Assembly: GCF_030848495.1 (NCBI RefSeq)
Contig: NZ_JAVDDT010000001.1
Coordinates: forward strand, 186,001-250,000
Length of the DNA: 64,000 nucleotides
Origin: Natronospira bacteriovora
GTDB taxonomy: Bacteria; Pseudomonadota; Gammaproteobacteria; Natronospirales; Natronospiraceae
Direction of reading: 5' to 3'
Position 1 is the stretch's first letter; the number at the start of each line of letters is the position of its first letter. A program made the translations under genes and the position numbers. Shown here piece by piece: positions 2,001-38,512 of this stretch. The notes under the pieces are model-generated. The model saw nothing but the letters and a program-made list of their open reading frames with translations. It was not told where the DNA came from and did no database searches.

Positions 2001-3353
2001 ATGATCCACAAGAATGCCAAACGCCGCTCTGCGGCAGTCCTGCTGGGTGCGGCCATGGCCGTGCCAATGACGGCCTCGGGCGCCGGTTTTTCCCTTATTG
2101 AACAAGGGGTTCGGGGCCTGGGCAATGCCTACGCCGGCGGCGCTGCCGTAGCCGACGACGCCAGCACCATCTATTTCAACCCGGCCGGCATGACCCGGCT
2201 GGATCGCCGCGAATGGACCGGTGGCGTCAGCGTCATCGACCTGCGGGGCGATTTCACCAAGGAAAGCGCCACCGATGCCATCGGCCAGCCGCTCAGCGGC
2301 GGCGAAGGCGGCAACATCGGCCATGGCGCCTCTCCAGTGCCGAATCTGTACTACCACACCAAGATCAACGACACGACGCATTTCGGCCTGGGCATCGGCG
2401 CACCCTTCGGCCTGGCCACCGATTACGAGGAAGATTCCATCTTCCGCTATCAGGCACGGCTGTCGGAGGTCGCCATTGTCAATATCAACCCGTCCATGGC
2501 CTGGAAGGTGCATGACAACTGGTCCGTGGGTGTTGGTCTGAATATTCAGTACATGCAGGTGGAGCTGAGCAACGCCGTTGATTTCGGCGCCGTCTGTTTC
2601 AGCCAGGTGGATCCCACCACCTGCTCGGCCCTCGGTCTGACGCCGCAGAACGCCGATGGCAGCGCCGTCATCGAAGGCAGCGGCATGGGTTATGGCTTCA
2701 ACATCGGTGTTCTCGGCGAACACGAAAACACCCGTGTGGGAATCCACTTCCGCAGCCAGGTCAAGCACGATCTGACCGGTGATGCCCGCTTCGAGGGGCG
2801 TCCGGCCATCTTCGCGGATCCGACCGCCGAGCATAACCCCTTCGACAACAGCCGAGTGGACGCCAGCTTCCGCGCGCCCTACTCCCTGTCCATGAGTTTT
2901 GCCCATGACATGACGGATCGTTTCACCCTTCTGGGTGATGCCACCTACATGGGCTGGAGCAGCTTCGACGAGCTGCGGGTGGAATACCGCAATCCGGCCC
3001 AGCCGGATACCGTGGAAGCCCAGAACTACAAGAATGACATGCGCTACGGCCTGGGCTTCAACTTCACGCACAGTGACCGCTGGATCCTGCGTGGTGGCAT
3101 TGCCTACGACGAAAGCCCGGTTCGTACCGAGCACCGCACGGCCCGCCTCCCCGATGATGATCGCACCTGGTTCTCCCTGGGTGCGACCTATCGCCATTCG
3201 GCCAACAGCGAGTTCGACTTTGCCTTTACCCATCTGATGCTGGATGACGAGATCCCGCTGGATCACACCGGGAGCCAGGGTGACCGGATCGTCGGCACCT
3301 ACGAGGTGTCTGCCAACATCGTGGGCATTCAGTGGCGCTACCTGTTCGACTGA
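2001..3353 (+). CDS. fadL: OmpP1/FadL family outer-membrane transporter
   Basis: A 450-residue precursor with a signal peptide (positive MIHKNAKRR, hydrophobic core to about residue 25, cleavage near ASG-A) and the FadL family N-terminal signature FSLIEQGVRGLGNAYAGGAA then FNPAGMTRL. The rest is alternating beta-strand sequence ending in an aromatic WRYLFD outer-membrane terminus. The family moves long-chain fatty acids or other hydrophobic compounds across the outer membrane by lateral diffusion. I chose the ATG at 2001, preceded by GGAAGGA, rather than the in-frame start at 1872, because it places the signal peptide at the N-terminus. It has its own terminator and a PsrA-like box upstream. 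The exact substrate is unknown. Confidence 0.88.
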   Translation: MIHKNAKRRSAAVLLGAAMAVPMTASGAGFSLIEQGVRGLGNAYAGGAAVADDASTIYFNPAGMTRLDRREWTGGVSVIDLRGDFTKESATDAIGQPLSGGEGGNIGHGASPVPNLYYHTKINDTTHFGLGIGAPFGLATDYEEDSIFRYQARLSEVAIVNINPSMAWKVHDNWSVGVGLNIQYMQVELSNAVDFGAVCFSQVDPTTCSALGLTPQNADGSAVIEGSGMGYGFNIGVLGEHENTRVGIHFRSQVKHDLTGDARFEGRPAIFADPTAEHNPFDNSRVDASFRAPYSLSMSFAHDMTDRFTLLGDATYMGWSSFDELRVEYRNPAQPDTVEAQNYKNDMRYGLGFNFTHSDRWILRGGIAYDESPVRTEHRTARLPDDDRTWFSLGATYRHSANSEFDFAFTHLMLDDEIPLDHTGSQGDRIVGTYEVSANIVGIQWRYLFD

Positions 3354-3392
3354 GGGAGCACCACGTGCCGGCATGTTTCCGGTAAAACGATC

Positions 3393-3425
3393 AAAGCCCG
3401 GTCAGACAACTGACCGGGCTTTTTT
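3393..3425 (+). terminator. Intrinsic terminator of the FadL-type gene
   Basis: A 12 bp perfect stem (3393-3404 with 3411-3422) around the loop GACAAC, followed by a T run. It lies 40 bp after the stop codon at 3353. Confidence 0.85.
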
Positions 3426-3532
3426 GATTCTTTGTCCCCGACATCGGGGATTGCTAGACTCGCTGAACCGGCGACCCTAAGGACTGTCCTAGAAGACAGC
3501 TGCCGGTATTCCGGCCATTTCTCGGGGACACC

Positions 3533-5044
3533 ATGGTAATGCGCCTGATCTACCGCCTGACCGCCATTCTGTTCGCCATGAGCCTGGGCTGGCTGGCCCT
3601 GGCAGGGCCGACTGTGGCCCAGGGTTTTGATACCAACCGCCTGCCGGATCTGGGCGATGCCAGCAGCACGGTATTCAGCCCCAGCGAGCAGGCCAGCATT
3701 GGCCGGGACATCGTTCGGCAGATCCGCGCCAGCGGGGCCATCCTGGAAGACCCGGATCTGGAGGAGTACATTCAGGGCCTCGGGCAGCACCTGGCTGCGC
3801 ACAGCTCGCGCCCCGGCGATCACTTTGACTTCTTCATCATCCGCAGTCCGGCCATCAATGCCTTCGCCCTTCCGGGCGGCTACATCGGCATCAATGCCGG
3901 CCTCATTCTCGCTGCCGACAATGAATCGGAGCTGGCAGGTGTCGTGGCTCATGAAATTGCCCACGTCACACAGCGCCACATCGCCCGCCAGATCGACGCC
4001 ATGCGAGGTACCGGGCTGGCAGCTCTGGGAGCCATGCTGGGTGCCATCCTCATTGCGGCGAACACCGGCCATGCGGATGCCGCAATGGCCACGGCAATTT
4101 CCGCCCAGGCCCTGACATTGCAACGGCAGATCAACTTCACCCGAGCCCATGAGTACGAAGCGGATCGAATCGGTATCAAGATGATGGCGGAAGCCGGGTT
4201 CGACCCGGAGGGCATGGCCACGTTCTTCGAGAAGCTTCAGCGAAGAACCCAGTATTCCGCGGGCCAGGGTGTGCCCGAGTATCTGAGAACCCACCCACTG
4301 ACCACCGCCCGAATCACCGAGGCCAGAAACCGGGCCCGTGATCTCCGTAGCGAGGACCATGAATCCAGCCGTCGTTTCTATCTCATGCGGGAACGACTCA
4401 ATGCAATGATTTCCGCCAGCGGCGGTCGGGAAGTCATCGCCCTGAACCCGGCACGATCGCCGATGGATATCGGGTTCACCGCCGACCTGGATGTCTATCG
4501 CCAGGCGGTGACCGCGCAGGTACGGGGACGCCATGAGGAAGCCGCACGGCTGTTTGGGAGCCTGCGCCGAAAATCACCAGACATCATCAGTTATTACATC
4601 GGTGAGGCCGAAAGCCTTCTGGCGAGCGGTAGAGAGACAGAAGCCCTGGAACTGTACCAGTCGGCCAGCGCCCTGTTCCCACGCAACCCAAGTCTGAGTG
4701 AGAGTCACGCACTGTCTCTGCTCGGGGCCGGGGAAGCCCAGCAAGCCCATGACAAGCTGTCGGCCATGGTCCGTCGCCAGGATGTTCCTGCCCGGTACCA
4801 TCGACATCTGGCTCAGGCAGCCAGCGACCTGGGAAATGAGGCCGAGTCCCATTTCCACATGGCGGGCTTCCATCTGGTGCAGGGGGATGTCTACAGCGCG
4901 ATGATTCAGATGCGTCTTGCGCTCGGATATCCGATCGCGGATTCCCGGCAACTGGCCCAGTTCAATGAACGGATGACGCGCATCAACATGAAATGGGAAC
5001 GGCTGCCCCGTGACGTTCAACAGGCACAGCGACCCGGGCAATGA
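3533..5044 (+). CDS. bepA: BepA-like M48 periplasmic metalloprotease with TPR domain
   Basis: A 503-residue protein with a signal peptide (cleavage after TVAQ near residue 30), an M48 peptidase domain with zinc motif HEIAH at residues 140-144 and the third ligand in HEYEADRIG near 205-212, and a C-terminal half made of TPR-like helices from about residue 320. This is the layout of BepA (YfgC), which degrades stalled LptD and BamA substrates and helps LptD disulfide maturation at the outer membrane. The start at 3533 has GGGGA five bases upstream. A perfect 7+7 inverted repeat (TCCCCGA-CA-TCGGGGA, 3435-3450) lies in the leader, function unknown. It converges on the M14 peptidase gene across a shared terminator. 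Confidence 0.88.
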   Translation: MVMRLIYRLTAILFAMSLGWLALAGPTVAQGFDTNRLPDLGDASSTVFSPSEQASIGRDIVRQIRASGAILEDPDLEEYIQGLGQHLAAHSSRPGDHFDFFIIRSPAINAFALPGGYIGINAGLILAADNESELAGVVAHEIAHVTQRHIARQIDAMRGTGLAALGAMLGAILIAANTGHADAAMATAISAQALTLQRQINFTRAHEYEADRIGIKMMAEAGFDPEGMATFFEKLQRRTQYSAGQGVPEYLRTHPLTTARITEARNRARDLRSEDHESSRRFYLMRERLNAMISASGGREVIALNPARSPMDIGFTADLDVYRQAVTAQVRGRHEEAARLFGSLRRKSPDIISYYIGEAESLLASGRETEALELYQSASALFPRNPSLSESHALSLLGAGEAQQAHDKLSAMVRRQDVPARYHRHLAQAASDLGNEAESHFHMAGFHLVQGDVYSAMIQMRLALGYPIADSRQLAQFNERMTRINMKWERLPRDVQQAQRPGQ

Positions 5045-5140
5045 CACCATGACGGGGGCACTTTGTTCTTGACGACGCGATTCCCGCACCGCCCCATGAT
5101 TCCGGACTGCACAGCTGGCGAACGGGTCAGCACCCAGTAA

Positions 5141-5168
5141 AAAGCCCCGCCGGTGGCGGGGCTTTTTT
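5141..5168. terminator. Bidirectional terminator between bepA and the M14 peptidase gene
   Basis: An 11 bp perfect stem AAAGCCCCGCC (5141-5151) with GGCGGGGCTTT (5155-5165), loop GGT. The A run on one side and T run on the other let it act on both strands between the two converging genes. Confidence 0.85.
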
Positions 5169-13027: not shown

Positions 13028-14113
13028 ATTGGCCGCGAACTGCATCATGCGGGCAGGGATCTGCTCCAGCGAGAGTATTTCGTCCGCCGCCCCGAGACTG
13101 ACTGCCGCCCCCGGCATCCCCCACACGGTGGAACTGGCCTCGTCCTGGACAATGGTCGCCGCACCGGATGCCTTCATTCTGGCCAGACCCTCGGCCCCGT
13201 CCCGGCCCATGCCGGTGAGCAACACACCTACCGCTTCGCTGCCCGCGGATTCGGCCACGGAGTCGAACATCACGTCCACACTCGGGCGATGCCGGTTCAC
13301 GGTTTCAGACTGGTCGATCCGGCAGATCAGCCGGGCACCGTCCCGCTGCACCCGCAAATGCCAGTCGCCCGGCGCCACGTAGGCATGGCCCGGCATGATC
13401 GGAGCACGGTCCGTGGCCTCCTTCACCGTGAGACTCGTCACACTGTTCAGGCGCTCGGCGAAGGGGCCACTGAAACTCGCGGGAATGTGCTGACTGATGA
13501 CGATGGGCGGGGAATCGGGCGGCAGGCATTCCAGCACACGCCGGATGGCCTCCGTACCACCGGTGGAGGCCCCGATGGCTACCAGCCTCTGGCGGGTACC
13601 CGCGCTACGGGCCTCGTAGGCTCCGGCCTCGCGCAGCGACTCTTTCACCCGCTCCCGAAAGGCTTCCCGCTCCGTTCCACTGAAATTGGTCAGGGGCCTG
13701 ATGGTTGCCCGGGCCGCCGCCTTGACCTTGGCGACCACTTCGGCCGCATAGTCTTCCAGCTTCACGGACAGCTCCCGGGCGGGCTTGGTGACGAAATCCA
13801 CGGCCCCCAGCTCCAGCGCCTGAAGCGTGACCTTGGCCCCGTCATGGGTAAGGGAGGAGACCATGACCACTGGCATGGGTCGCAGACGCATGAGGTTTTC
13901 CAGAAAGGTAATACCATCCATGCGCGGCATTTCCACATCCAGCGTGATCACATCGGGATCGAGCCGCTTGATCTGATCACGGGCCGCATAGGGGTCGGGA
14001 GCCGCACCGACCACCTCGATCCCCGGATCGGACTCCAGCATCCGGGTGAGCAGCTTGCGCACCAGGGCCGAATCATCCACGACGATGACGCGAATCTTGC
14101 CATTCGTACTCAA
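13007..14113 (-). CDS. cheB: CheB protein-glutamate methylesterase/deamidase
   Basis: A 368-residue two-domain protein. The receiver domain (about 1-125) has the acidic pocket VVDDS and the phosphoacceptor D59 in [12 protein letters not shown]. The methylesterase domain (about 170-360) carries the catalytic triad motifs [16 protein letters not shown] and [12 protein letters not shown]. It removes methyl groups from chemoreceptors and deamidates glutamines when phosphorylated by CheA. The interdomain linker of roughly 45 residues is a normal length. Its ATG overlaps the cheD stop (ATGA). Unlike Pseudomonas, cheB is not beside cheA but in a separate unit with mcp, cheR and cheD. Confidence 0.95.
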
Positions 14114-21122: not shown

Positions 21123-21671
21123 CTAAACCGCCTGCTTCCTGTCCTTTTCTTCATTGGGCATGAGGCGACGTACGTCCACCAGAACCGTCAGACCGTCTTC
21201 CCGTCGCACCACACCCAGAATATGCCTCGACACCTGGTTGTTCTCGAACTGCGGCGCCGGCTCGATCTCGCTGGGCCGGATATCGATGACCTCATCCACA
21301 TCATCCACCATCAGCCCCAGAACCTGATCCTCGGTTTCCAGCACGATTACCTGATGGATGCATTCCTGATCCGGCTCATCCAGCGCAAAGCGCAAACGGG
21401 TATCGATGACGGTCACGATATTGCCACGCAGATTGATCACACCCAGCACGAAATGCTCCGCGCCGGGTACAGGCGTGATGTTTCCAGCCTTGAGGATCTC
21501 CTGCACATGGGTGGCCTGAATGGCGTAGCGCTCACGCCCGAGGCGAAAGCTGACCCACTGTTCCCGGGGTTCCTGTTTGCGCTCGGCCCGCCGAGCGCTT
21601 TTCTTGCGGGCGGGAGCAGGCCTGGCTTCGGAGGCCCGGTGCTCCTGTCTGTCTTCTTCAGACATGCTCAA
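21123..21671 (-). CDS. cheW: CheW coupling protein (main operon copy)
   Basis: A 182-residue CheW protein with a basic N-terminal extension of about 38 residues (RPAPARKKSARRAERK), then the CheW core: WVSFRLGRERYAIQATHVQEIL, EHFVLGVINLRGNIVTVIDTRLRF, VLGLMVDDVDEVIDI. It links CheA and receptors in the polar array. Its ATG overlaps the parP stop by four bases. The basic extension is longer than in E. coli CheW. Confidence 0.94.
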   Translation of the reverse strand: MSMSEEDRQEHRASEARPAPARKKSARRAERKQEPREQWVSFRLGRERYAIQATHVQEILKAGNITPVPGAEHFVLGVINLRGNIVTVIDTRLRFALDEPDQECIHQVIVLETEDQVLGLMVDDVDEVIDIRPSEIEPAPQFENNQVSRHILGVVRREDGLTVLVDVRRLMPNEEKDRKQAV

Positions 21672-22249
21672 TCTCCTTGCTGACTCTCAATCGCCGCCAG
21701 CAGGCCAGGGATATCAAGCACCACCATGCTGCGATTCATGATCGTGCCGGCCAGCCAGGGGCGGCTTCCAGGCTCCTGGCGCCAGCGTACCTCATCGGCC
21801 TCCAGACTGACGGGCAAGGGCTCGGATCCCGCAATCAGAGTGAGATCACCGTCCGCCAGGTGCACAAGCCCACTGGCCCGCTCGGAGAGCGGCGGCAAAG
21901 AGCGGCGATGCGCCTCTGGCAGAATCAGACAGGCGGGATCCACGATCACCCGCGACTCTCCCTGCAGCCGGTGACGCCCCTGAAGCAGGCGATCACTGAG
22001 CCAATCCATGCCGACGGGTATCTCGTCCGTCACGGAGCGTACCTGTTCGCCGGGCAGCACCAGAATCAGATGGGCGACACCAAAGCCCCACCAATCCACC
22101 TGCGAAGGACGATCCACCCTGGTGGACTCCGGGGCCACCGGCACCGGCGCTTCCATCATCTCCACGGTCTCGTTCACCGCGCCCTCGTCATCGGCAAGCA
22201 TGTCCGCAAGATAACGGGCCAGTGGATCCTCTGGGTGGTGATCATTCAC
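21668..22249 (-). CDS. parP: ParP-like CheW-domain protein
   Basis: A 193-residue protein whose C-terminal part (from about residue 50: VDWWGFGVAHLILVLPGEQV ... RPWLAGTIMNRSMVVLDIPGLL) is a divergent CheW-like fold. In Vibrio the protein in this position, ParP, uses such an AIF domain to bind CheA, receptors and ParC and so holds chemotaxis arrays at the pole. The N-terminal 45 residues are acidic and probably disordered; known ParP proteins have longer N-termini. The gene is coupled by four-base overlaps to both parC and cheW. Assignment rests on the domain plus synteny. Confidence 0.75.
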   Translation of the reverse strand: MNDHHPEDPLARYLADMLADDEGAVNETVEMMEAPVPVAPESTRVDRPSQVDWWGFGVAHLILVLPGEQVRSVTDEIPVGMDWLSDRLLQGRHRLQGESRVIVDPACLILPEAHRRSLPPLSERASGLVHLADGDLTLIAGSEPLPVSLEADEVRWRQEPGSRPWLAGTIMNRSMVVLDIPGLLAAIESQQGD

Positions 22250-23040
22250 GAAGCCACCTCCCGCAATTGCTTGTCACTGCTCATCAAGTCCCGACAGAGG
22301 GCGTCGTAGGCCCTGGCGCCCCGGGCCTCCGGTGACAGCGTGGTCAGCGGCCGCCCCAGCCGGCTGGCTTCGCGGAAACGGGTATCCACCGGAATGACCT
22401 GTTCCCAGACGTGGGGCGCAAATTCATCACGCAGGGTATACAGACTCTGAAGGGAAGCGCGTGTACGGCGATCGAACTGGGTGGGAACGATGAGGTAATC
22501 GGGAACCACGCCGCGTGATCGGCCGATCATTTCCAGGGTGCGCAACATGCGCCGTAGACCATTGAGGGCGAGAAACTCCGTCTGCACGGGAATGACCAGC
22601 TGGTCACAGGCGGCCAGGGCATTGACCATGAGAATGCCCAGCATGGGCGGGCAGTCCAGGATGACATGATCCCATTCACCCTTCAGCCCCCCGAGACCCC
22701 GCTGCAAGACCACCCCCATTCCCGTTCGGGTGCCATACTTGCGATCCAGCACAGCCAGGGCCGGGCTGGCCGGCAGGATATCAATATCATCCGCGCCGGT
22801 GTGGCGAACCCGTGGCCCCCCGTTGACGGGCGCCTCCCCCACCGCCTTCAGAAACAGCGAATAGACACCGTCATCCGTCTGTTCCGGATCCAGGCCGAGA
22901 TAGCTACTCAGGGACGCATGGGGATCCAGGTCCACCACCAGTACGCGCTCGCCACGCTGCCTCAGAGCCCCGGCCAGGCTGATGACGGTGGTGGTCTTGC
23001 CCACGCCACCCTTCTGATTGGCGACCGCCCAGATCGTCAC
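22246..23040 (-). CDS. parC: ParC, ParA-like ATPase for polar array positioning
   Basis: A 264-residue ParA/Soj family ATPase with the deviant Walker A KGGVGKTTT at residues 10-18, the A' motif VLVVDLDPHASLS and Walker B DHVILDCPPM. In Vibrio and Pseudomonas the orthologue (ParC/Soj) next to the che genes recruits chemotaxis arrays to the flagellated pole through ParP. Four-base overlaps with motD upstream and parP downstream show one translation-coupled unit. Confidence 0.88.
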   Translation of the reverse strand: MTIWAVANQKGGVGKTTTVISLAGALRQRGERVLVVDLDPHASLSSYLGLDPEQTDDGVYSLFLKAVGEAPVNGGPRVRHTGADDIDILPASPALAVLDRKYGTRTGMGVVLQRGLGGLKGEWDHVILDCPPMLGILMVNALAACDQLVIPVQTEFLALNGLRRMLRTLEMIGRSRGVVPDYLIVPTQFDRRTRASLQSLYTLRDEFAPHVWEQVIPVDTRFREASRLGRPLTTLSPEARGARAYDALCRDLMSSDKQLREVAS

Positions 23041-24784: not shown

Positions 24785-26974
24785 TCAGGATGCCTTCCGG
24801 CTTTCCATGCTCTGTGATTTGACCAGGATCGGCACGTCCAGAATCAGTGCGATGCGCCCGTCACCCGTGATGGTTGCGCCCGCGTACCCGGCCATGCCTC
24901 TCAAGTAGGCGCCCAGGGGCTTGATCACCACTTCTTCCCTCCCGAGCACATCATCCACCACCAGACCCAATTGCTGACCGCCCACTTCGACAATGACCAC
25001 CTGGCGGTCGTCCTCGCGATCCGGGGCATTGCTTCCGGACAGCCACTGTCTCAGGTAGACAAGCGGAAGGGTGCGGTTTCTCACTCGAATCACCTGCCGT
25101 CCGTCCACCCGATGAGCGGTCTTCTCGTCCAGGTAGATGACCTCCCGGATATTCGACAGGGGCAGCGCGAAGATCGAGCCATCGAGCGTGACCATCAGGG
25201 TGGGCAGAATGGCCAGCGTCAGAGGCACCCGGATCTGGATTTCGGAACCCCGCCCCGGCCTTGAATCGATCTCGATGGTGCCATTGAGCTGGGCAATTCT
25301 GGTCTTGACCACATCCATGCCCACACCGCGACCGGATACGTCCGAAATCTGCTCCTTGGTGCTGAAACCCGGCCGGAAGATCAGATTGAAGGCCTCCCGA
25401 TCATCCAGGCGTTCGGCCTCGTCCATTTCCATCAGGCCCTTGTCCACGGCCTTGCGGCGCAGGGCATCGGGGTTCATGCCCGCCCCGTCATCACGAATCG
25501 TCAGCAGAACCTGATCGCCTTCCTGTTCGGCCGACAGCACGACCGTTCCCGTCTCATTCTTTCCGGCCTGACGCCGGATGTCCGGTGACTCGATGCCATG
25601 ATCGACGGCATTGCGAACCAGATGAACCAGGGGATCCGCCAGCGCCTCCACCAGGTTCTTGTCCAGGTCGGTGTCCTCTCCGTGCAGCTCCAGCTTCACC
25701 TGTTTCTCGAGATTGCGGGCCAGATCCCTCGCCACGCGCGGGAAACGGGAAAAGACCTTCTTCACCGGCTGCATGCGGGTATGCATCACCGCGCCCTGCA
25801 GGTCGGATGTCACCAGATCCAGCTCGCTCACCGCATTCGCGGTTGCTTCATCCTGAGCCTGGTCACCACCCAGCGTGACCAAGCGGTTGCGGATCAGCAC
25901 CAGCTCGCCCACCAGATTCATGATGGAATCCAGCCGGCTGGTATCCACACGCACCGTGGTCTCCGCGGACATGGCGGCCGCTGCCGGGCTGGCCGGCTTG
26001 GCCGGCTGCCGGCTGTCCGGCTTGCTTACATCCTTCTGGCTGGCTGGCTTGTCGCTCACCGGGGAGGCCGTCGCCTCAGGGGCAGACTGAACCGCCCCCG
26101 CATCCTTCTCTTGCGGGGACTCGGGCCGGGCAGCCGCCGAAGGACCGCGGCCCTTGCCGTGAAGGTCATCCATCAGGGCCTCGAATTCATCGTCACTGAT
26201 GAACGCCTCGCCCTGATTTCCCGCCGTGTCGCCTGCAGCCGCCGAAGAGGGCTTGCCGGGCGCGGCCTTGCTGCCATGCAATTCATCCAGCAGGGATTCA
26301 AACTCGTCTTCCGTGATTTCATCGCCGGACGCAGCCGCCACGCCCGGCCCGCTTCCCTGACCGTGCAGTTCGTCAAGCAGGCCCTCGAACTCCTCTTCGC
26401 TGATCTCGTCACCCCCGGCGGGAGTATCCGGCATTGACGGCGAACCGCTGTCATTTCCCGCCGACAACATGGCCTCGAATTCGTCGTCCGTCGCGTCTCT
26501 GGCAGCCTCTACCGGGGCGGGCACTGAGTCCGGCTCGATGGTTTCAGCGGCTGCGGCGACGGGCCCATCCCCGGATTCGCCATTCTGGCCGTCGATGCGG
26601 CTGCGCAGGGAGTCAATCAGTGACTGGGGAGCTTGGGACAGGGGCTTCGATTCACGCACCTCGGCAAACATGGTGTGCAGCCAATCCAGAGTGGACAGGG
26701 CATCGTCCATCAAACCCTGGGTGACGGAGATGTCACCGGCGCGCAGCACGTCAAACACGTCTTCGGCGCTGTGGCAGAGATCCACCATTTCCTTCAGGCT
26801 CAGGAAGCTGGCACCCCCCTTGATGGTGTGAAAACCACGGAAGATGGTGTTGAGCAGGTCCGTGTCATCCGGCCGCTGTTCCAGCTCGACCAGCTGTTCA
26901 CCAAGCTCTTCGAGGATTTCTCCGGCTTCCACCAGGAAATCGGCCAACAGCTCCTGATCCACTTCGAAGCTCAT
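24785..26974 (-). CDS. cheA: CheA chemotaxis histidine kinase
   Basis: A 729-residue CheA from the ATG at 26974 (GGAGGGGA upstream; the ATG at 26986 lies in that Shine-Dalgarno region). Domains: P1 Hpt with H49 in FRGFHTIKGGASFLSL; a long acidic linker (about 130-335) holding three tandem DEFExLLDELHG-type repeats; P3 dimerisation (about 336-410); P4 ATPase with HLVRNAVDHGIE, DDGAGM and GRGVGMDVV; and P5 CheW-like domain at the C-terminus. There is no clear CheY-binding P2 domain of the E. coli kind. It phosphorylates CheY and CheB. Confidence 0.95.
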   Translation of the reverse strand: MSFEVDQELLADFLVEAGEILEELGEQLVELEQRPDDTDLLNTIFRGFHTIKGGASFLSLKEMVDLCHSAEDVFDVLRAGDISVTQGLMDDALSTLDWLHTMFAEVRESKPLSQAPQSLIDSLRSRIDGQNGESGDGPVAAAAETIEPDSVPAPVEAARDATDDEFEAMLSAGNDSGSPSMPDTPAGGDEISEEEFEGLLDELHGQGSGPGVAAASGDEITEDEFESLLDELHGSKAAPGKPSSAAAGDTAGNQGEAFISDDEFEALMDDLHGKGRGPSAAARPESPQEKDAGAVQSAPEATASPVSDKPASQKDVSKPDSRQPAKPASPAAAAMSAETTVRVDTSRLDSIMNLVGELVLIRNRLVTLGGDQAQDEATANAVSELDLVTSDLQGAVMHTRMQPVKKVFSRFPRVARDLARNLEKQVKLELHGEDTDLDKNLVEALADPLVHLVRNAVDHGIESPDIRRQAGKNETGTVVLSAEQEGDQVLLTIRDDGAGMNPDALRRKAVDKGLMEMDEAERLDDREAFNLIFRPGFSTKEQISDVSGRGVGMDVVKTRIAQLNGTIEIDSRPGRGSEIQIRVPLTLAILPTLMVTLDGSIFALPLSNIREVIYLDEKTAHRVDGRQVIRVRNRTLPLVYLRQWLSGSNAPDREDDRQVVIVEVGGQQLGLVVDDVLGREEVVIKPLGAYLRGMAGYAGATITGDGRIALILDVPILVKSQSMESRKAS
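26156..26488 (-). repeat. Tandem LHG-type repeats inside CheA
   Basis: In-frame repeats in the CheA linker: a degenerate copy DDEFEAML at residues 163-170 and three fuller copies, EISEEEFEGLLDELHG (about 190-205), EITEDEFESLLDELHG (219-234) and FISDDEFEALMDDLHG (258-273). Each predicts a short acidic amphipathic helix, separated by Gly/Ala/Pro-rich spacers. Confidence 0.8.
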
Positions 26975-27035: not shown

Positions 27036-27809
27036 TCAGAAACCCAGGCTGGACAAAAGATCATCAACCTCATCCTGGCCCTGGGCCACATCCCCTGCCT
27101 GATCGGAGGGAGTTGCCGGGCCATGCCCGCGAGAATCGGACTTCTCCGGCTTCTTCTCTTCCTTATCGGCCACTTGCGGCTCAGACTTGAGCTGTTTTCC
27201 ACCGGCGACCCGGAGCAGATCCACCATGCCCTCTTCCAGTTCCTGCACCATGCTGATCACTCGGCTGATGATCTGCCCGGTCAGGTCCTGATACTCCTGG
27301 GCCATCAGAATCTCGGTGAGCCCGCCTCGAATGCTTTCCACATCACTGTCGGCGGCCCCCAGAAAGGTCTGCAATCGGCGCGCCACCTGGCGGAACTCGT
27401 CCGCGGCCATGTTGCGAGCGAGAAAACGTTCCCAGTCGGCGGCCAGTGTCCTGGCCTCGCTGCCCATGGATTCCGCCCGTGGCAACAGGGATTCCACCGT
27501 TTCCAGGGTGGTGTGGGCGGCCTTCTCGGTCATTTCCACCACGTAGTTGAGACGATCACGCGCATCCGGCATTTCCTTCTCGGCCAGCTCCGCCAGCCGA
27601 AAATCCATGCGGAAACTCTTGAGCGCGTCGTGCAGCTCCCGGGTCAGCTTGCCGACCTCCACGAACAGCTCCTTCTCGCGGATATGGGTCAGCTCATCCA
27701 GCTCCTCGTTGAAGATGCGCTCGTCGCCGCTTTCCAGGGCCTGCGCCATGCGCTGCACCCGCTCGCGGTAGTCATCAGCCCGCTTTTGATCATCAAATGC
27801 CATGGTCAT
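27036..27809 (-). CDS. cheZ: CheZ CheY-P phosphatase
   Basis: A 257-residue CheZ: a long helical body (about 1-200), the catalytic segment LMAQEYQDLTGQIISRVISM containing the conserved Asp-x-x-Gln-type pair, and a C-terminal CheY-binding helix DEVDDLLSSLGF joined by a flexible charged linker. It removes the phosphate from CheY. The ATG at 27809 has GGGAG five bases upstream. It lies between cheY and cheA as in Pseudomonas and Vibrio. Confidence 0.93.
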   Translation of the reverse strand: MTMAFDDQKRADDYRERVQRMAQALESGDERIFNEELDELTHIREKELFVEVGKLTRELHDALKSFRMDFRLAELAEKEMPDARDRLNYVVEMTEKAAHTTLETVESLLPRAESMGSEARTLAADWERFLARNMAADEFRQVARRLQTFLGAADSDVESIRGGLTEILMAQEYQDLTGQIISRVISMVQELEEGMVDLLRVAGGKQLKSEPQVADKEEKKPEKSDSRGHGPATPSDQAGDVAQGQDEVDDLLSSLGF

Positions 27810-27838: not shown

Positions 27839-28225
27839 TCAGCCCTCCAGGCGTTCAAAGATCTTCTCGATCTTCTCCTTCAGCGTGGCTGCCGTGAAGG
27901 GCTTGATGATGTAGCCGTTGACGCCGGCCTGGGCCGCCTCGACGATCTGATCCCGCTTGGCTTCAGCGGTGACCATGAGTACCGGCATGGAACTCAGCTT
28001 CTCGTCGGCGCGAATCTCCTTGAGCAGATCCAGACCGGTCATGCCCGGCATGTTCCAGTCGGTGACGACGAAATCGAAATCACCGTTCTTGAGCAGTGGC
28101 AGGGCCGTCTTGCCGTCATCAGCCTCCTGGGTATTGTTGAACCCAAGATCCCGCAAGAGATTCTTGATGATTCGTCGCATGGTGGAGAAATCATCCACCA
28201 CCAGAATCTTCATGTTCTTGTCCAA
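27839..28225 (-). CDS. cheY: CheY response regulator
   Basis: A 128-residue single-domain receiver with the acidic pocket VVDD, phosphoacceptor in [12 protein letters not shown], the conserved Thr/Ala region MVTAEAK and the Lys in [10 protein letters not shown]. Phospho-CheY binds FliM and FliN to change motor direction. The predicted start is TTG with GGAGG five bases upstream, giving [11 protein letters not shown], which matches the NKNMKIL start of Vibrio CheY; an ATG at 28213 would give MKILVVDD as in Pseudomonas. Confidence 0.95.
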
Positions 28226-37044: not shown

Positions 37045-37469
37045 CTCAGCTTCTTGATGCGTTCGGAGGGGCTGACCACGTCGGTGAGGCGGATACCGAA
37101 CTTCTCGTTCACCACCACCACTTCGCCGTGGGCTACCAATGTGCCGTTGACCAGCACATCCAGGGGCTCACCGGCAAATCGGTCCAGCTCCACCACCGAC
37201 CCCTGGCTGAGCTGCAGCAGGTTGCGGATACTGATCTTGGTACGTCCCACTTCCATGGCCAGGTTCACGTTCAGATCGAGAATCATGTCGAGATTCACAT
37301 CCTCGGAACCACTGCCGCCGCCCTTGCCGCCGAGATCATCGAAGCTGGCCCTTTCCACGGACTCGCCAGCCGTATCCGATTCACCCTCCTGCTGGGCCGC
37401 CTCCATTGCCTCGATCTGACGGCGCTCGTCCTCGCTCAGACCATCCTGTTTCTTGTCGTCATCACTCAT
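37041..37469 (-). CDS. fliN: FliN motor switch C-ring protein
   Basis: A 142-residue FliN: an acidic N-terminal region (about 1-55) and the SpoA domain LDLNVNLAMEVGRTKISIRNLLQLSQGSVVELDRFAGEPLDVLVNGTLVAHGEVVVVNEKFGIRLTDVVSP. It forms the bottom of the C-ring and helps dock the FliHI complex. Four-base overlaps with fliM and fliO. Confidence 0.96.
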   Translation of the reverse strand: MSDDDKKQDGLSEDERRQIEAMEAAQQEGESDTAGESVERASFDDLGGKGGGSGSEDVNLDMILDLNVNLAMEVGRTKISIRNLLQLSQGSVVELDRFAGEPLDVLVNGTLVAHGEVVVVNEKFGIRLTDVVSPSERIKKLR

Positions 37470-38512
37470 GACTGCTTCCTCGCGCTCGCCTTACGCTCTT
37501 GATTACCTGACTGTTTCACGCCAGCGTTTGCTGTCGAATTCCTTTCCTGCTTGACCCAGCTCTTGAGCTGAACGGCATTGTGGCCTTCGGAAACACCGAA
37601 TCGCCCGCGAAACAGGGGCAGATCCCCTTCCGCGACCACCAGCACATCCTCCGGAATATCAATCGGAATGATGTCGCCGGCCTTCAGCTTGAGCAGGCTT
37701 CGAATGTCCATTTCCGCCTCGGCCAGCGTGGCCGAAAGCTCCACCCGGGCATCCTTCACTTCATCCCGCAGGGCCTGGGTCCAGCGCTCATCCTTTTCCA
37801 CCCGGTCACTCTGCACACCGGTATCCAGCAGTTCCTTGATGGGCTCGATCATGGAATAGGGCATGGTGATGTGGAACTCGCCGCTGCCCCCTTCCAGCTC
37901 CACCGTGAAGGTGCTTACCACGACCACTTCACTGGGGCTGACGATGTTGGCGAACTGTGGATTGACCTCGGACTCGAGAAAGGTGAAATCCAGGTCCATC
38001 ACCGGTGACCAGGCTTCCTTGAGATCCTCGAAGGCATCGTGCAGGAGTTTCTGGATGATGCGGTTCTCGGCCGGCGTGAATTCCCGGCCCTCGATCTTGG
38101 TATAGAAGCGACCGTCACCACCGAAGAAGTTGTCCACCACCACGAAGACCAGTTTGGGATCGATGATGAACAGAGCCATCCCCCGCAATGGATCCGCCCG
38201 AACCAGGTTCAGGCTCGTGGGGACGTACAGGGAGTGGACATATTCGGAGAACTTGAGCATGTCCACCCCACCCACCGAAATCTCGGCGGAGCGGCGCAGC
38301 ATGTTGAAAAGACTGATTCTCAGGTAACGGGCAAAACGCTCGTTGATCATCTCCAGAGTCGGCAGGCGACCCCGGACGATGCGATCCTCCCGGGTGAAGT
38401 CATAGGGCCGGGTTTCACCGGGATCCCTGGCCTCCTCCTCGGTATCCACATCGCCGCCCTGCACACCATGCATGAGGGCATCGATTTCTTCCTGTGAGAG
38501 TACGTCGCTCAC
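37466..38512 (-). CDS. fliM: FliM motor switch C-ring protein
   Basis: A 348-residue FliM: the N-terminal CheY-P binding motif LSQEEIDALMHG (residues 5-16), a CheC-like middle domain with the FliG-contact loop GGDGRFYTKIEGREFTPAE, and a C-terminal SpoA domain (VLVVAEGDLPLFRGRFGVSEG). A basic and polar tail of about 30 residues follows. It transmits CheY-P binding to rotor reversal. Four-base overlap with fliN. Confidence 0.96.
   Translation of the reverse strand: MSDVLSQEEIDALMHGVQGGDVDTEEEARDPGETRPYDFTREDRIVRGRLPTLEMINERFARYLRISLFNMLRRSAEISVGGVDMLKFSEYVHSLYVPTSLNLVRADPLRGMALFIIDPKLVFVVVDNFFGGDGRFYTKIEGREFTPAENRIIQKLLHDAFEDLKEAWSPVMDLDFTFLESEVNPQFANIVSPSEVVVVSTFTVELEGGSGEFHITMPYSMIEPIKELLDTGVQSDRVEKDERWTQALRDEVKDARVELSATLAEAEMDIRSLLKLKAGDIIPIDIPEDVLVVAEGDLPLFRGRFGVSEGHNAVQLKSWVKQERNSTANAGVKQSGNQERKASARKQS

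Follow-up and report, generated by a model that had tools for sequence, protein, structure and literature searches.

Tandem helix repeats at the P2 position of a gammaproteobacterial CheA class: candidate docking motifs for CheY

Background

In Escherichia coli the alpha4-beta5-alpha5 face of CheY binds the N-terminus of FliM, the C-terminus of CheZ and the P2 domain of the kinase CheA. The FliM N-terminus and the CheZ C-terminus are CheY-binding peptides, whereas P2, in E. coli as in Thermotoga maritima, is one folded domain placed between P1 and P3. According to extracts of a CheA census, about half of the CheAs have no detectable P2, and the stretch found there is unstructured (PMC10782961); the words motif and repeat are absent from the census text. 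An extract of a Pseudomonas putida study describes CheA as a five-domain protein with a CheY-binding part (PMC11978298). A further region, CheA-LID, was reported in Vibrio by Ringgaard et al. (2014), as cited in PMC5706961 and PMC7534058, the relevant extracts of which place it between P2 and P3, have it bound by ParP-AIF and describe it as occurring only in CheAs accompanied by ParC/ParP.

In this work we analysed a window of 64,000 nucleotides (positions 186,001 to 250,000 of contig NZ_JAVDDT010000001.1, assembly GCF_030848495.1) from Natronospira bacteriovora. A first-pass annotation of this stretch had noticed tandem repeats in the CheA linker, beside parC and parP, and had proposed that they could serve ParP, CheY or some other component of the array as multivalent docking sites. 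The four repeat strings were not found by a text search of open PMC papers. We compared the repeat-bearing CheA with its relatives, and the comparison makes CheY a better first candidate than ParP.

Methods

CheA loci were obtained by searching 232 class-level genomes and 199 phylum-level genomes, and by one scan of named genomes, from which the best 80 of 594 loci were considered. From the class-level genomes 30 + 80 loci were taken, partial matches and most lower-ranked paralogs being skipped, and from the phylum-level genomes 30 loci were taken out of 48 rows. Frames with 120 or more residues ahead of P3 numbered 219; after those with identical last 300 residues had been merged, 211 distinct CheAs made up the comparison set.

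A strict repeat pattern was dropped in favour of profile counts because it gave zero copies in several orthologs; these had Q or Y instead of H, lacked LHG, or had frames cut at contig ends. P2-like domains were searched with a profile built on eight paralogs and widened in two rounds. The Pfam P2 models gave no match in 29 paralogs either and hence provided no control. The label P2-like rests on position, size and the ferredoxin-like fold of P2. Structures were predicted with AF2, the model of the window CheA covering residues 1-340 and using an alignment of 82 orthologous N-termini.

Results and discussion

Tandem repeats in the linker of the window CheA

The cheA gene lies in a minus-strand flagellar and chemotaxis cluster, fliM-fliN ... 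flhB-flhA ... flhG-fliA-cheY-cheZ-cheA-motA-motB-parC-parP-cheW, in which some genes were named from sequence and order (Table 1). The order flhG-fliA-cheY-cheZ-cheA ... motA-motB-parC-parP-cheW is also present elsewhere, for example at locus L053. A cheB methylesterase domain is encoded far from cheA (13049-13582, minus strand). In several relatives cheA and motA are separated by a frame of about 360 residues, which is absent from the window.

Translation of the minus strand at 26156-26488 gives the repeat-bearing stretch, inside the CheA frame, and confirms the tandem repeats first annotated there. The unit, [DE]I[ST][DE][DE]EFExLLDxLHG, has 16 residues and occurs as three strong copies and one weak copy in an otherwise low-complexity P1-P3 linker. 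The best self-match of 16 residues within the linker scored 70, against at most 44 in shuffled linkers, none of 500 reaching 70. With a repeat profile on the window's genome, the three strong copies had E-values between 3.5e-13 and 3.3e-12. The weak copy came next at E 0.31, nearly level with an unrelated match at 0.35, and alone is not significant in this search. Tandem Repeats Finder missed the protein repeats and returned only three overlapping low-complexity rows within 25976-26024. The same genome has two more CheA genes, known here as partial sequences (L001 and L003), which gave no match to the strict pattern and, before P3, none to the repeat profile.

Table 1. Coordinates of the repeats and of the genes discussed, in positions of the window
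Feature	Coordinates	Strand	Remarks
cheA, 733 aa	24785..26986	minus	P1 (Hpt, res. 12-111), linker with repeats, P3, P4, P5
Repeat copy 1, DATDDEFEAMLSAGND	26450..26497, res. 164-179	minus	weak, no LHG; AF2 helix 165-178
Repeat copy 2, EISEEEFEGLLDELHG	26360..26407, res. 194-209	minus	AF2 helix 197-205, low confidence
Repeat copy 3, EITEDEFESLLDELHG	26273..26320, res. 223-238	minus	AF2 helix 226-237
Repeat copy 4, FISDDEFEALMDDLHG	26156..26203, res. 262-277	minus	AF2 helix 265-275
cheY	27839..28225	minus	Response_reg 6.2e-33; proposed repeat partner
cheZ	27036..27809	minus	PF04344 2.5e-71; C-terminus QDEVDDLLSSLGF repeat-like in sequence
fliM	37466..38512	minus	N-terminus VLSQEEIDALMHG repeat-like; pattern match 38471-38500
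parC (ParA-like ATPase)	22246..23040	minus	AAA_31 1.8e-42; orthologs near repeat-bearing CheAs
parP, 193 aa, divergent	21668..22249	minus	VRWR...RPWLAG kept; from alignment with 11 relatives and synteny
cheW	21123..21671	minus	PF01584 2.3e-36

Short conserved helices in a disordered linker

The AF2 model of the window CheA consists of a confident P1 followed by a low-confidence chain in which, past residue 132, there are only four helices, one per repeat. In blocks of ten residues, pLDDT is 66-79 at copies 1, 3 and 4 and about 56-59 at copy 2. There is no folded P2 between P1 and P3 in this model. Foldseek found P1 structures and nothing readable as P2 apart from P1 itself, the top row, 2lp4 (a P1-CheY/P2 entry), having an rmsd of 23. 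Pfam matched Hpt, H-kinase_dim, HATPase_c and CheW in the window CheA, and no P2. Of the columns past residue 130 that are at least 90% conserved, ten out of 12 lie in copies 3 and 4.

Copies were counted in 142 CheAs with an intact P1, made up of those with at least 50% core identity and of L108. They were present in 141 of the 142, amounting to 410 copies at a median spacing of 41 residues, with the middle Phe in 404, the following [DE] in 401 and the two Leu in 365 and 394. Three copies are the commonest number (71 CheAs), followed by four (33), two (28) and one (9); the sole CheA with zero copies, L232, comes from a betaproteobacterial bin and lies outside the class defined below. In the CheA of locus L058 all three copies read ITDDEFEALL and have lost LHG. 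That locus (3029-5167) contains three near-identical longer units, LPEGVDPDG[ED]ITDDEFEALLNQRD, and because of this near-identity its repeats may have been homogenised recently, as the sequence suggests.

The weak copy had been annotated as degenerate. A weak copy does exist, but decay is not required, as a tail-less first copy is common to four-copy CheAs: an LHG-like tail ([HYQ]G) is missing from copy 1 in 33/33 of them and kept in 96 of the 99 copies at positions 2-4, which makes the first copy look like an old, distinct type.

Repeats and P2-like domains exclude each other

The class of the window CheA was set at a core (P3-P5) identity to it of at least 53%, a threshold chosen after the spread had been seen, and comprised 143 of the 211 CheAs. 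It is probably the class F6, a label used here in the sense of PMC7184735. The profile (E up to 0.1) detected the repeat in 142 of the 143 members, and the last one, L222, has a divergent copy, LDDLDFDSLLDAFHG, recognised by eye. No member had a P2-like domain by profile search, nor a long C-terminal extension, by which we mean more than 90 residues beyond the core, whether or not these form a receiver domain. Among the other 68 CheAs, 22 had a P2-like domain, 22 a long C-terminal extension and 21 neither, while three (L088, L089 and L108) had the repeat and neither of these.

Repeat and P2-like domain did not occur together in any of the 211 CheAs, the 22 with a P2-like domain being without repeats. 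Six loci (L075, L086, L089, L210, L211 and L222) contain both types of CheA, and neither type carries the module of the other there. When the threshold was relaxed to E 1, the P2-like paralog L112 gave a partial repeat match at 0.98. As to the nature of the P2-like domain, a PDB search with an alignment of 21 of the 22 members gave no match at E 0.01, and the stretch of one member gave only beta-lactamase matches, from E 0.39 upwards. AF2 predicts a small alpha/beta fold for one member (pLDDT 86.6); ribosomal S6 and PII are the top PDB matches of this model, with no CheA P2 chain among the 50 matches listed. The repeats lie between P1 and P3, where E. coli CheA has P2, and no P2 was found there by AF2, with the P2-like profile or with the Pfam models, which provided no control.

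The repeat-bearing CheAs amounted to 155 rows, duplicates included and L222 counted; 43 of these carry a class label, in all cases Gammaproteobacteria, and 112 carry none. Their genera include Pseudomonas, Vibrio, Shewanella, Marinobacter and Colwellia. Viral contigs gave 581 pattern matches, none of them a relative. The repeats are characteristic of the entire orthologous class within this sample. The cheA of L067 (genome G154) is interrupted upstream of P3, either through an assembly error or as a pseudogene. A CheA of this class, accompanied by ParC, is also encoded on a metagenome-bin contig labelled Klebsiella pneumoniae (L207); it clusters with L062 from a different genome, and the contig is probably mis-binned.

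The repeats accompany ParC and ParP and persist without them

Considering only CheAs with at least 6 kb of downstream sequence, the locus encoded ParC for 66 of the 80 repeat-bearing CheAs versus 1 of the 47 CheAs without a profile-detected repeat, the single exception being L222, which itself has a divergent copy. A ParP match of at least 60 bits was present in 59 of the 80 loci. The suspected association of the repeats with parC/parP therefore holds across CheAs, and other ParP-linked CheAs devoid of repeats were not seen. The co-occurrence is strong, yet both features mark the same class.

Such co-occurrence would be expected if the repeats were the CheA-LID itself, that is, putative docking sites for ParP-AIF that tether CheA to the pole and have no role towards CheY. 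The LID belongs to the same kind of CheA and to the same linker upstream of P3, and, going by the extracts cited above, a ParP-bound region confined to CheAs with ParC/ParP fits the locus counts. Since the repeats hold almost all the conserved linker columns, a ParP-bound region should include or touch them, and the two probably overlap. CheAs without ParC in the locus also have fewer copies, 31 in 14 (mean 2.2, leaving out L232, which is outside the class and has no copies) versus a mean of 3.03 in 65, which is what a partial role in binding ParP would predict. The window ParP retains two tryptophans, both invariant among 12 aligned ParPs. This ParP is short and without Pfam match, still with its VRWR and RPWLAG signatures, while CheW (PF01584) is matched in 11/11 of its aligned relatives.

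The loci without ParC speak against this reading. Within 6 kb downstream, 14 repeat-bearing loci had no ParC; whole-genome searches found neither ParC nor ParP for nine of them, ParC elsewhere for three, ParP only for one (L042) and an uncertain result for one (L200, a metagenome bin). ParC lies elsewhere in the genome for L041 and L078. The ParP of L042 (genome G161) was found at 94 bits with no ParC ortholog in that genome, and may work without ParC. With L069, a short locus, added as the tenth, and G154 excluded for its broken CheA frame, ten repeat-bearing CheAs come from genomes in which neither ortholog was found: L055, L058, L064, L069, L084, L085, L089, L202 (Allochromatium palmeri), L211 (Dyella acidisoli) and L214 (Hydrocarboniphaga). 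L108 had also been considered as such a case and was dropped, as its genome has both genes elsewhere. In the ten genomes the best ParA-like match reached at most 149 bits, versus at least 197 for ParC orthologs, with borderline best matches in G020/G152 (148 bits, 36%), and the ParP search gave at most 37 bits, the match probably being CheW. The absence of ParP is least sure for Dyella, because the ParP score is likewise low (29 bits) in G147, which has ParC and clusters with Stenotrophomonas. Genome completeness is 91-100% for seven of the ten, the records of L202, L211 and L214 containing no figure. L089 has divergent copies and L214 a single one. On a tree of 92 CheA cores (82 with ParC, 10 without; a quick method, several long branches, the window's own CheA left out because the locus taken for it did not extend as far as ParC), the label of ParC absence must change 8 times or more, and well-supported (starred) branches force 4 of these changes.

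Because these ten CheAs, from several lineages, keep the repeats where ParC and ParP were not found, ParP docking alone does not explain them. The repeats seem to be maintained by something besides ParP, and ParP may use them too. Unlike the LID as described in those extracts, which is limited to ParC/ParP CheAs, the repeats persist without these proteins; this counts against the LID reading only if LID and repeats are the same thing. We consider an exclusive ParP role rather unlikely. As regards the multivalent docking first proposed, short conserved helices, in every sampled class member, on a disordered linker with hardly any other conserved column lend it indirect support; ParP is unlikely to be the only partner.

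The repeats might also bind CheW-like (SH3-like) domains in general, those of CheW, CheV, P5 and ParP, and thereby link neighbouring core units. ParP-AIF is CheW-like, 11 of the 12 aligned sequences matching PF01584, and a CheW match is present in 8 of 9 listed loci of the ParC/ParP-negative genomes (not in L214), so that this reading accommodates the LID data and the ParP-less genomes together. However, loci of P2-like CheAs have CheW matches as well and their CheAs have no repeats, and the resemblance to FliM described below is left unexplained. We regard this general binding as improbable.

Resemblance to CheY-binding peptides

A fixed pattern, made after the repeats had been seen, matched only the three strong repeats and the FliM N-terminus in the six frames of the window. 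A matrix built on 191 copies and substitution-smoothed was scored on 1,095 non-CheA ORFs, a background made of the ORFs of chemotaxis and FliM loci plus the window and not of a random proteome. The 22 FliM-labelled ORFs among them, left from 30 FliM loci plus others after longest-first ORF picking, had a median rank of 37/1,095, and the best window was N-terminal in 20 of the 22; out of 300 column-permuted matrices, two reached the rank of 37 and none the count of 20/22. As the 22 FliMs are related to each other, this support is closer to one case than to 22. With the first, unsmoothed matrix two other ORFs were on top, and CheZ and FliM windows were among the first ten. The window FliM gave no match up to E 10 with the repeat profile on five whole genomes.

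For CheZ, the best window of the repeat matrix was at the C-terminus in 12 of 63 proteins, which 14 of 300 permutations reached, and internal in 39 of 63. The internal match is a helix located about 117 residues from the C-terminal end or nearby, for example ELSADEFRSLVHDIDG and EMTAEEFRQLVKEIEA in the CheZ proteins encoded at L039 2319-3098 and L047 2370-3116. CheZ was not found in loci L084, L085 and L088 and therefore does not seem to be an obligate partner of the repeats.

In the reverse direction, a FliM N-terminal matrix placed the class CheAs at a median rank of 137.5/1,174, which 13 of 100 permuted matrices equalled, and had its best window inside a repeat in 52 of 72 CheAs, which 2 of 100 permutations reached. 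The CheZ C-terminal matrix did so in 44 of 72 (6/100 permutations; 19/100 for rank). The FliM matrix ranked the CheZ C-termini first, and the CheZ matrix ranked the FliM N-termini near the top, as expected of two known CheY ligands; for the CheA repeats both gave moderate support only. The repeats appear to have in common with both peptides a cap residue, an acidic stretch and E-hydrophobic-[DE]-x-L-L, as a short helix in a flexible segment. They differ by the central residue, which is Phe (404/410) and not Ile/Val, and by being multiple, inside the linker of a kinase and followed by the LHG tail. The resemblance to the FliM N-terminus is suggestive, not proof.

A less specific likeness has to be weighed against it, since the repeat pattern is, in sequence, close to a common N-capped acidic helix. 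The Pfam matches listed for the 82 orthologous N-termini cover the 25 commonest of 55 families and include SHOCT in 72 (best E 4.4e-9) and GemA in 25 (best 1.9e-6). The repeats might thus be bound by some other partner, or form a generic SHOCT-like helical spacer that sets linker length or self-association. They resemble SHOCT (PF09851) by the IT-xEEFE helix start, and one CheA of Pseudomonas, L173, passes the cut-off (27.6 versus 27), also over half the length. A PDB search with one repeat matched only troponin C, at E 3.7, in keeping with a pattern similar to an EF-hand helix. The window match, by contrast, scores 17.4 bits versus the cut-off of 27, covers model positions 14-27 of 28 only and lies mid-protein, so that the window CheA does not match the whole 28-residue model above the gathering score. 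Moreover, E-F-[DE]-x-L-L-D is conserved across 410 copies while the remainder of the linker drifts, which is more than would be required of a spacer. Another partner or a spacer is, in our view, distinctly unlikely.

CheY is a better first candidate than ParP because the repeats sit at the place of P2, exclude P2-like domains and resemble the FliM N-terminus. An extract of work on CheYs that moved from CheA-F6 to CheA-F7 reports changes in three P2-facing and five P1-facing residues (PMC7184735), which, as far as that extract goes, point the same way as the repeat position and the exclusion of P2.

Conclusions

We tentatively favour, at just under an even chance, that in this CheA class the folded P2 is replaced by a series of short linear docking motifs, the repeats, as putative CheY binders. 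A single copy would form a short amphipathic helix and bind the alpha4-beta5-alpha5 receiver face of CheY, the one used in E. coli by FliM, CheZ and P2. Several weak sites on a flexible linker would keep CheY, and perhaps CheB, near phospho-P1, and CheY would then be released to the motor. CheY as the partner, the face used and the effect on phosphotransfer are what we infer. The proposed job, CheY docking near P1, and the place between P1 and P3 would be those of P2; the difference is that P2 is one folded domain and the repeats are one to four short helices on a disordered linker. In lineages with ParC/ParP the same region is perhaps also the CheA-LID bound by ParP, and docking of CheY, with docking of ParP as a second, lineage-bound use, is the most likely mechanism.

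A broader version, possible though leaning towards doubtful, is that a major gammaproteobacterial CheA class found in Pseudomonas, Vibrio, Shewanella and relatives is P2-less and captures CheY by one to four FliM-like motifs, that kinase, motor and phosphatase compete for one CheY face, that copy number tunes CheY retention at the array and that ParP borrowed the sites later. If CheY docking is true, P2-less CheAs of this class would recruit CheY by repeated linear motifs, and the described restriction of the ParP-binding region to CheAs with ParC/ParP would have to be qualified. Kinase, motor and CheZ would compete directly for CheY, and the repeats would offer a concrete mutable site for the study of chemotaxis in Pseudomonas and Vibrio.
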